Positions 4,709 through 7,367 of a stretch of DNA of 64,000 nucleotides are shown here, in pieces (position 1 is the first letter of the stretch; each line of letters starts with the position of its first letter). The position numbers and the translations under genes are program-made. The notes under the pieces were generated by a model. That model saw only the letters and a list, made by a program, of their open reading frames with translations. It did no database searches and had not been told where the DNA came from. Source of the stretch: Halobacterium sp. DL1 (lineage in GTDB: Archaea; Halobacteriota; Halobacteria; Halobacteriales; Halobacteriaceae); contig CP007060.1 in assembly GCA_000230955.3 (NCBI GenBank), positions 1,674,001 through 1,738,000 on the forward strand, written 5' to 3'.

Positions 4709-4797
4709 GACGCTTCGTTGCCGAGTAGGCGTGTTAAGCGTCGTGATTCCTTGGCGATCCCCAGCAGTATCGTCCCGGGGTACGTTCCGCAGAAGAG

Positions 4798-4872
4798 TGC
4801 TCCGTCAGGGATTTGAACCCTAGTCCTTGCCGTGAGAGGGCAAGATGATTGGCCGGACTACACCAACGGAGC
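4798..4872 (-). tRNA. tRNA-Glu (anticodon CUC)
   Basis: The reverse strand folds as a cloverleaf of 75 nt: acceptor GCTCCGT pairing with ACGGAGC, discriminator A, anticodon stem TTGCC/GGCAA around loop CTCTCAC (anticodon CTC, reading GAG), and T arm with GGTTCAAATCC. No intron and no encoded CCA is seen. An AT-rich element (TTATTTGT at about 4899-4906) lies roughly 30 bases upstream and probably is its TATA box. Confidence 0.95.
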
Positions 4873-4987: not shown

Positions 4988-6499
4988 TCAGGGGTCGACG
5001 GACTTCGACACCCACCCGGAGGCCCCGCTCGGGTACGGCGACTCCTCCTCGCGTGGCTGGAGCGTGCCGGTGCCGTCGGTGGCGCGGACGACGACCTCGT
5101 GGGAGCGCTCCGGTGGGTCGTACTCGTAGGCCCACTGGCGCCAGACGTCCTCGCCGGGCAGCGGTCCCGAGAGGCGCGCGTCCGCCCACGAGTCGCCGCC
5201 ATCGGTCGACACCTCGACGCGCTCGATACCGCGCGTCCCGGCGTAGGCGTGGCCGGCCACCTGCTTGCGGCCGTCCTCGAGGTCGTTCTCGACGTGGAGT
5301 TTGGCGACAGTGTTCACCGGCCCGGTCCCGTGCCAGCCGCGCTCCTCCCAGTAGCCGTCCTCCTCGGTCTCCAGGATCTCGATCTCCGTGAGCCACTTGA
5401 CGTTGATCTCGCCCCAGTGCCCGGGAATCAGGGCGCGCGCCGGGTAGCCGTGCCCGCGGGGGAGCGCCTCGCCGTTCATGCCGAATGCGAGGAAGCCGTC
5501 CTCAAGGGCGGACAGCGGGAACTCCTCGTAGAACCCGTCCGCCGCGCGCAGCATCACGCAACAGCCCTCGGTGGGTACCGCGGGTTCGACGAGGTCCATA
5601 ATCGGCACGCCCTGCCAGAGCGCGTTGTCGAGTTTCCGGCCGTTGAGCCCCTCGCCGACGCAGCGCAGGGAGACGAACTGGTTCTCGGCGTCCATCGACG
5701 TCACGTCGTCGTACGTGTACGTCCGCTCCTCCTCGACAGCGCCGGTGACCGACAGCTCCCAGGAGTCGGCGCTCCGGTCCGGGTTCACCGAGTTGATGTC
5801 GACCTCGTAGAAGCTGTCGCTGACCAGGGGCTCCAGCCCCGCCACGTCGAGGGACTGTGTCTCGGCCGTACCGAGCAGGCTCTCGGTCTCGGATTCGAGG
5901 CTGCGGTCCACCTCGAGCGGTGCCACGGTGGTGTCGGAGTCGCGGCCCGACCCGAGGAGGAAGCCGGCCAGCGTGACCGTGACCGCACTCGCCACGCCGC
6001 CGAGGATGCGGCGCCTGTCCGCGGCGACGTCCGGCGTCCGGCCGTCCGCCGAGAGCGTCGTCGCAGCGATCACCACGCTGACGGCTGCGCCGGTCGCAAA
6101 GGCGGGGAGGAGGGCGCCAGTGAGGACGACGGACAGCAGCCCAGTCGAAGCGGCGCCGACCACCGGGGCGACGACCCGCGACCGGGCGCGCCGGCCGGCG
6201 GCCAGTCCGACGGAGGCGGCGAGCGTCAGCAGGAACCAAGCGAGGGCGAGCGCCGCCACCAGGTTGAGCGTCTCGCCGAGATCGCCGAGGACGAGAATCG
6301 CGAACCTGACGACCGCCGCGGGCATCTCGCGACTCAGCAGGCTGGCGATGGGTCCGGCGACGAACGAGGGGGTGAACCCCGCGACGGCGTACGAGGCGGC
6401 GAGCCCAGCGAGCCCCGCGAACAGGGAGACGATCACCGTGGCTGCGCCCGGGAGGCGGCGGGCCGCGGCGCGACGGACGCTGAGAGGCTGTTCGGTCAC
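4988..6499 (-). CDS. Five-TM membrane protein with external sulfite-oxidase-like molybdenum cofactor domain
   Basis: 503 residues from a GTG at 6499, chosen because it follows the upstream stop by four bases; an ATG at 6550 would overlap the upstream gene by about 47 bases. Residues 18-150 hold four hydrophobic helices (about 18-41, 77-100, 109-130, 132-150), with Arg-rich loops (RRAAARR; GRRARSR) on the predicted inside. A fifth helix (167-185) is preceded by DRRRILGG (161-168), a Tat-like motif. Residues 220-500 are a sulfite-oxidase/molybdopterin domain with the probable Mo-ligand Cys280 in SLRCVGEGLNG, and a C-terminal dimerisation-like Ig domain. Predicted topology puts the cofactor domain outside. 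Likely a membrane-anchored oxidoreductase; substrate and redox partner unknown. It follows the spondin lipoprotein in one operon. Confidence 0.85.
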   Translation of the reverse strand: MTEQPLSVRRAAARRLPGAATVIVSLFAGLAGLAASYAVAGFTPSFVAGPIASLLSREMPAAVVRFAILVLGDLGETLNLVAALALAWFLLTLAASVGLAAGRRARSRVVAPVVGAASTGLLSVVLTGALLPAFATGAAVSVVIAATTLSADGRTPDVAADRRRILGGVASAVTVTLAGFLLGSGRDSDTTVAPLEVDRSLESETESLLGTAETQSLDVAGLEPLVSDSFYEVDINSVNPDRSADSWELSVTGAVEEERTYTYDDVTSMDAENQFVSLRCVGEGLNGRKLDNALWQGVPIMDLVEPAVPTEGCCVMLRAADGFYEEFPLSALEDGFLAFGMNGEALPRGHGYPARALIPGHWGEINVKWLTEIEILETEEDGYWEERGWHGTGPVNTVAKLHVENDLEDGRKQVAGHAYAGTRGIERVEVSTDGGDSWADARLSGPLPGEDVWRQWAYEYDPPERSHEVVVRATDGTGTLQPREEESPYPSGASGWVSKSVDP

Positions 6500-6503
6500 A
6501 GGC

Positions 6504-7367
6504 TCAGGCCTCCATCGAGTCGACCGTAACGGTGACCTCGAGGACGTCACCGGTCGCGGGGTAGTCGAACCCGTCGTCGACGGACATGACGTTGCGGACG
6601 GTGGCGTCCTCGCTCGGTCCGGAGTCGGCCTCCATCTGCCGCGGGGCCTGGTCGCCCCCGGTTCCCGGCTCCTGGTTCTGCTCGGTGCCCGCGTCCCAGA
6701 GCGTGAACTGGTCGGTCACGTCGCCCGTGACCGGTTCACCGTCCTCGTACAGCGGGACGCCGTCCGTCCCGGGGGCGTAGAACAGGTCGTTCGACTGGAC
6801 GAACATCGTCGCCAGCGAGAGGCGCTTACCCGCGGCCGCTTCGACGGTGAACTCGTAGGACTCGCCTGGACCGATGGGCGCGGGTTCGTCGGCGTCTTTC
6901 GGCACGGCCACCGAGTCGACCGTCGCGTCACTCGTCTCCATCGAGACTTCCTCGACGAGTGCGGTCGGCGACCCGTCCTCGGCGAGCCGTTCCAGTCCCG
7001 TGCTGGCGGCCGCTCCGGGCGCGAACAGCGGGTTGTCGCCCTCGTGGACGGCGTAGGCCGCGGGAGAGAGCGGGACGGCTTTGCCGCCGTCCATCGTCTG
7101 GAGGGTCGACCTGTCGGAGACGTTCCGGACGCAGACGGTGAGCATCGTGGACATCATCTCGTCCTCCGTGGTGTCGTCCATGTCGTCACCGTCGTTCATC
7201 CCCTCTTCGGTCGTAGTCATGCCATCCTCCGTCGTCGTCATCATTTCCCCGGTCGTCGTGTCGTCGCTGCCACCGCGGTCCACGATATCCGTGCACCCGG
7301 CCAGGGCCGCGACGCCGAGGGTCGTTGCGCCAGTGACGAACCGCCGTCGGGTCGTGTCGTCTGACAT
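6504..7367 (-). CDS. Spondin-domain lipoprotein, Tat-exported
   Basis: 287 residues. The N-terminus TRRRFVTGATTLGVAALAGC has a twin-arginine motif at 7-10 and a lipobox ending in Cys25, so it should be exported by Tat and lipid-anchored. Residues 28-65 are a low-complexity Thr/Glu/Met/Asp linker. The rest (LTVCVRNVS ... APGAAASTGLERLAEDG ... YEFTVEA ... LATMFVQSNDLFYAP) matches the pattern of the Spondin_N family, beta-sandwich domains of unclear prokaryotic role. It ends four bases before the molybdenum-cofactor membrane protein, so the two are likely made together at the cell surface. Confidence 0.82.
   Translation of the reverse strand: MSDDTTRRRFVTGATTLGVAALAGCTDIVDRGGSDDTTTGEMMTTTEDGMTTTEEGMNDGDDMDDTTEDEMMSTMLTVCVRNVSDRSTLQTMDGGKAVPLSPAAYAVHEGDNPLFAPGAAASTGLERLAEDGSPTALVEEVSMETSDATVDSVAVPKDADEPAPIGPGESYEFTVEAAAGKRLSLATMFVQSNDLFYAPGTDGVPLYEDGEPVTGDVTDQFTLWDAGTEQNQEPGTGGDQAPRQMEADSGPSEDATVRNVMSVDDGFDYPATGDVLEVTVTVDSMEA

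Follow-up and report, generated by a model that had tools for sequence, protein, structure and literature searches.

A haem-free, membrane-anchored molybdenum-cofactor protein family with a predicted dual Sec/Tat layout in haloarchaea and actinobacteria

The gene described here lies in a 64,000-nucleotide stretch of Halobacterium sp. DL1 DNA, the whole of which is called the window, and its product is a membrane-anchored molybdenum-cofactor (MoCo) oxidoreductase (Table 1). Judged from sequence, the family of this protein is a second Sec/Tat MoCo family, common to haloarchaea and actinobacteria and separate from that of Sco3746. We put at roughly three in four the probability that the protein is assembled first by Sec and then by Tat, and that it works with a probably soluble electron partner on a substrate other than sulfite.

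Sco3746 and its relatives were described by Tooke et al. (2017; PMC5449189) as proteins of five helices with a twin arginine before helix 5 and the MoCo domain outside. Histidines in helices 2–4 were predicted to bind two haem b, and Sco3746 reporter fusions were shown to be Tat dependent in E. coli (PMC5449189). The same authors already listed Haloprofundus marisrubri WP_058581003.1 in this family, listed a Thermoplasmatales polyferredoxin as dual-targeted as well, and concluded on bioinformatic grounds, with experiments in E. coli, that dual-targeted proteins occur in two domains of life, in bacteria and euryarchaea (PMC5449189). The initial annotation saw in a haloarchaeal example an extension of the mechanism to Archaea, a step therefore anticipated bioinformatically by that work. 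The literature searched yielded no experimental test of dual targeting in an archaeon and no paper describing the haem-free family, although subscription journals lay outside the search and the supplementary list of Tooke et al. may name members. What is new is narrower, namely a distinct haem-free Sec/Tat MoCo family whose membrane module has no assigned role.

Table 1. Features of the MoCo gene and its surroundings, in positions of the window
Feature	Position	Strand	Basis
CDS, 503 aa + stop; five-helix haem-free MoCo membrane oxidoreductase	4988..6499	-	ORF, start and Shine-Dalgarno context, Pfam, AlphaFold2
Transmembrane helix 1, residues 19-40	6380..6445	-	AlphaFold2, hydropathy
Predicted external helical hairpin with Pro60, residues 48-71 (48-58/61-71)	6287..6358	-	AlphaFold2, combined alignment
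Transmembrane helix 2, residues 73-105	6185..6283	-	AlphaFold2, hydropathy
Transmembrane helix 3, residues 110-127	6119..6172	-	AlphaFold2, hydropathy
Transmembrane helix 4, residues 130-150	6050..6112	-	AlphaFold2, hydropathy
Twin-arginine motif D-R-R-R-I-L, residues 161-166 (D161 first)	6002..6019	-	Sequence; homologue conservation
Tat-type helix 5, AlphaFold2 helix 158-188, uncharged stretch 165-185	5936..6028	-	AlphaFold2, hydropathy
Oxidored_molyb (PF00174), residues 240-384	5348..5782	-	Pfam E 1e-33; Foldseek to SorA E 1.3e-21
Cys280, predicted Mo ligand	5660..5662	-	Aligned with SorA Mo cysteine; Cys in 267/268 homologues
Mo-co_dimer (PF03404) dimerisation domain, residues 406-484	5048..5284	-	Pfam E 1.3e-9
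Upstream spondin-domain gene, likely same transcript, own Tat-lipoprotein signal TRRRFVTGATTLGVAALAGC (TRRRF...LAGC)	6504..7367	-	NCBIfam NF038123 E 2.2e-48, neighbours
tRNA-Glu (CTC), just downstream of the MoCo gene	4797-4872	-	

The gene, its catalytic domain and the question of sulfite

The MoCo gene starts with GTG at 6499, with GGAGG a few bases 5' and the stop of the upstream spondin-domain gene 4 bases before. In a class-wide search, 120 of 194 haloarchaeal genomes contained a homologue with an E-value of 1e-50 or lower, and the set compared below holds 268 sequences, 121 distinct haloarchaeal and 147 actinobacterial; a Nocardia plasmid match was left out of the membrane comparisons, its membrane part not being intact in the frame found. 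The external sulfite-oxidase-like domain and the molybdenum ligand Cys280, both proposed in the initial annotation, are borne out by the Pfam match, by SorA as the best Foldseek match and by the alignment of Cys280 with the SorA cysteine, and the window protein thus has both the fold and the cysteine of the sulfite oxidases.

Three other key residues, among them the arginine that binds sulfite (R55 in SorA) and the catalytic tyrosine (Y236), are replaced. Profile alignment to SorA structures, including those of the R55M, H57A and Y236F mutants, places V233, I235 and W389 at the positions of SorA R55, H57 and Y236; a one-residue gap alternative sets E232 opposite R55, a position that is variable in haloarchaea and Arg in actinobacteria. 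Among the haloarchaeal members valine occupies the R55 position in 119 of 121 and tryptophan the Y236 position in all 121. The window protein also misses the curated cut-offs for SorA, SorT and SoxC (96–109 bits against 420–600) and for MsrP (43 bits against 207).

These data bear on whether the window protein is simply a membrane-anchored sulfite dehydrogenase of the SorA/SorT/SoxC kind. These three enzymes are its best fold and sequence matches and share with it the catalytic fold, the Mo cysteine and the dimerisation domain, but they are soluble where the window protein is anchored, its scores fall far below their cut-offs, and R55, H57 and Y236 are all exchanged, with the register at R55 permitting the one-residue shift noted above. 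We consider such an enzyme unlikely. From the replaced residues together with the failed SorA, SorT, SoxC and MsrP cut-offs we infer another substrate. The MoCo domain of MsrP (of the MsrP/MsrQ, or YedY/YedZ, system) belongs to the same Pfam family and has an FYE start similar to that of the window protein's domain. MsrP is Tat-exported and, unlike the window protein, is itself soluble and pairs with a distinct haem b protein in the membrane.

Membrane topology and the twin arginine

The AlphaFold2 model of the window protein (pLDDT 92.2, pTM 0.87) and the distribution of charges agree with the initial annotation in giving four N-terminal helices with the N-terminus inside and with RRAAARR at the N-terminus and GRRARSR in loop 2–3 on the predicted inner side. 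Neither basic cluster is among the conserved positions of the homologues. The model adds a helical hairpin between helices 1 and 2 that the annotation lacked, and Pro60 within it is kept in 267 of the 268 haloarchaeal and actinobacterial sequences of the combined alignment. Conserved charges (D57, K64-D/E65, F-G-T-x-D-K) mark the hairpin and the beginning of helix 2 in the actinobacterial homologues (e.g. at loci L161 and L138); in their place the haloarchaeal homologues have neutral residues or Q or H.

The Tat-like motif that had been proposed ahead of the fifth helix is present, and its conservation across homologues, which the annotation had named as a check, is high: R163 is found in 268/268 and R162 in 260/268 sequences, and in the 121 haloarchaeal proteins the only membrane-part positions conserved at 85% or above, besides the start Met, are F46, P60, I68, G72, R162, R163 and L166. 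By an approximate TATFIND-like rule, 259 of the 268 place a strict RR in a setting typical of Tat signals, where position +4 is hydrophobic and there is an uncharged stretch; the strict RR is missing in eight, of which five carry KR. About 11 residues separate the end of helix 4 (residue 150) from the twin arginine (162–163), above the minimum cytoplasmic loop of 8 aa ahead of the Tat motif given by Tooke et al. (PMC5449189). On the hydrophobicity scale used, helix 5 falls below the mean of helices 1–4 in 66 of 77 homologues; in the window protein itself it scores close to helices 3 and 4 and only slightly below the mean of helices 1–4. A single positive charge, R186, closely follows it, where the dual-targeted class of Tooke et al. 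is marked by positive charges behind a last helix of low hydrophobicity. By its modelled helices, its charges and its Pfam domains, the window protein has the layout of that class: an even number of helices starting from an inside N-terminus, then a twin arginine heading one final helix, and the cofactor domain at the C-terminus. Actinobacterial polytopic Rieske proteins likewise have a Tat-type last helix behind Sec-type helices; they usually have three helices and bear a Rieske iron-sulfur domain instead of MoCo.

Sec could alternatively insert all five helices, with the twin arginine a mere positive-inside topology signal and the catalytic domain folding outside. Basic residues ahead of the helix would be expected inside in any case, and in the window protein the hydrophobicity of helix 5 does not fall clearly below that of helices 3 and 4. 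Against this, near-invariance is confined, among the inside basic residues, to the two arginines. A base rate comes from 44 clusters of unrelated polytopic genes at the same haloarchaeal loci: by the approximate rule given above, only 3 of them have a Tat-like RR ahead of any helix but the first. Insertion wholly by Sec also conflicts with the need of the cofactor domain for cytoplasmic assembly, since MoCo proteins acquire their cofactor in the cytoplasm and for that reason depend on Tat (review, PMC7317946). We regard the all-Sec route as distinctly unlikely, and dependence of the window protein on both Sec and Tat as likely.

Haem-type and haem-free proteins

A MoCo-domain search of the organism's own genome returned three genes. 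One of them (L003:1474-2508, minus strand; G000:C1 near 2009711-2010745) encodes a second five-helix MoCo protein of 345 aa with haem-type anatomy and RR before helix 5. In 20 haloarchaeal haem-type proteins H43, H111, H125 and the pair R141-R142, numbered as in this own-genome copy, are invariant. The actinobacterial haem-type proteins agree with what was published for Sco3746 on the spacing of the helices, the histidines and the features of helix 5, the haem type being equated with Sco3746 by anatomy, set against the published description rather than by direct alignment. The membrane part of the window protein contains no histidine, and helices 3 and 4 of the 121 haloarchaeal homologues contain no conserved one; a histidine occurs at the start of helix 2 in 30 of the 121. 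On these predictions the genome carries both a haem and a haem-free kind. That the actinobacterial homologues are Sco3746 itself was ruled out by their missing histidines and by the haem-type proteins found separately.

The MoCo domains of the two kinds are homologous (hhalign 99.8%, E 2.3e-27), whereas their membrane modules, compared by sequence profile rather than by fold as the AlphaFold2 model of the haem paralogue is moderate (pLDDT 72), show no similarity when the RR is left out (0.1–0.2%). Positive controls, in which haloarchaeal and actinobacterial modules were compared within each kind, gave 89.5% (E 2e-6) and 88.5% (E 2.7e-6). Profile searches gave weak cytochrome b561 matches for the haem module (E 1.2e-5 and 0.022) and nothing meaningful for the haem-free module. 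In the MoCo-domain tree, with the root assumed between the kinds, haloarchaeal and actinobacterial haem-free proteins form one group (support 0.92), within which each lineage is a clade of its own (1.0 and 0.87, respectively). The membrane modules are accordingly not detectably related by profile, and it is possible that they have diverged past detection.

The Sco3746 family resembles the window protein in its five helices with the N-terminus in, its RR before helix 5 and its external MoCo domain of the same superfamily, and, like the window family, it occurs in actinobacteria and haloarchaea. It differs in a b561-like membrane part with three invariant histidines and in lacking a dimerisation domain. 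In the window protein, by contrast, histidines are absent from the membrane part, the four helices and their external hairpin form a module unrelated by profile, and a Mo-co_dimer domain is present. The dual Sec/Tat architecture proposed earlier thus stands as to the five-helix layout, the Tat-like helix 5 and the external MoCo domain, but membership of the same MoCo family does not, given the missing histidines, the unrelated module and the replaced catalytic residues. That the window protein is a divergent member of the haem/MoCo family of Tooke et al. is very unlikely, for although layout and MoCo domain (99.8%) are shared, the haem histidines are absent, the modules score 0.1–0.2% against about 89% in the controls, the genome has another gene for a true haem type, the window protein has the extra dimerisation domain, and the two kinds form separate clades. 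It is an evenly balanced proposition that molybdenum enzymes acquired the dual Sec/Tat layout on two or more occasions, through separate fusions of a b561-like haem module and an unrelated haem-free module with an external hairpin, each of four helices, to a Tat-type helix followed by a MoCo domain, with both kinds present in haloarchaea and actinobacteria and here in one genome.

Proposed assembly, electron partner and significance

In the assembly that we favour, Sec followed by Tat, helices 1–4 would be inserted co-translationally by Sec, and Sec would not complete the insertion of helix 5, which is weakly hydrophobic and has the essentially invariant RR in front. This helix and the catalytic domain would be held in the cytoplasm until the domain has folded around the molybdenum cofactor, after which Tat would carry the folded domain outside and helix 5 would remain as the fifth anchor. 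Haloarchaea make heavy use of Tat, and the genome itself has three TatC-domain matches, two of them within one 730-aa open frame. At the outer face the catalytic domain is probably a dimer. As the membrane part has no haem ligands, the protein would probably exchange electrons with a soluble carrier, either halocyanin or a c-type cytochrome, instead of passing them through the membrane as the haem-type relatives do, and the substrate is probably not sulfite.

No universal partner gene was found in the neighbourhoods of about 98 loci. The spondin-domain gene adjoins the MoCo gene in only five of them, which rules out its lipoprotein product as a general partner. At about 25–27 of about 98 loci (e.g. 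L040, L058 and L128) the next gene downstream, in the same orientation, encodes a small ArsR-type winged-helix regulator, often followed by a small uncharacterised membrane protein. In one haloarchaeal clade (L096, L098, L102-L104, L108, L111-L113) the MoCo gene sits beside CcmE, a cytochrome c assembly protein and a CcdA-like gene.

Overall, cytochrome c maturation genes lie near the MoCo gene in 8–9 of about 98 loci, and they hint at a c-type cytochrome partner in the clade that has them. Together with 13 copper-protein domain matches in the organism's own genome, these neighbours are circumstantial pointers to a soluble partner. The soluble partner and the non-sulfite substrate are probable readings, drawn from absences and from the neighbours of some clades only.

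If the two origins are true, the haem-free module would be an uncharacterised membrane device, because the conservation of Pro60 in its hairpin matches that of the twin arginine. The presence of haem and haem-free versions in one cell would make the electron-transfer role of the membrane module separable from its role as an anchor. If the Sec/Tat assembly is confirmed, a widespread second MoCo family would join the short list of proteins that require both translocases, and a native test of dual targeting would become possible in haloarchaea.
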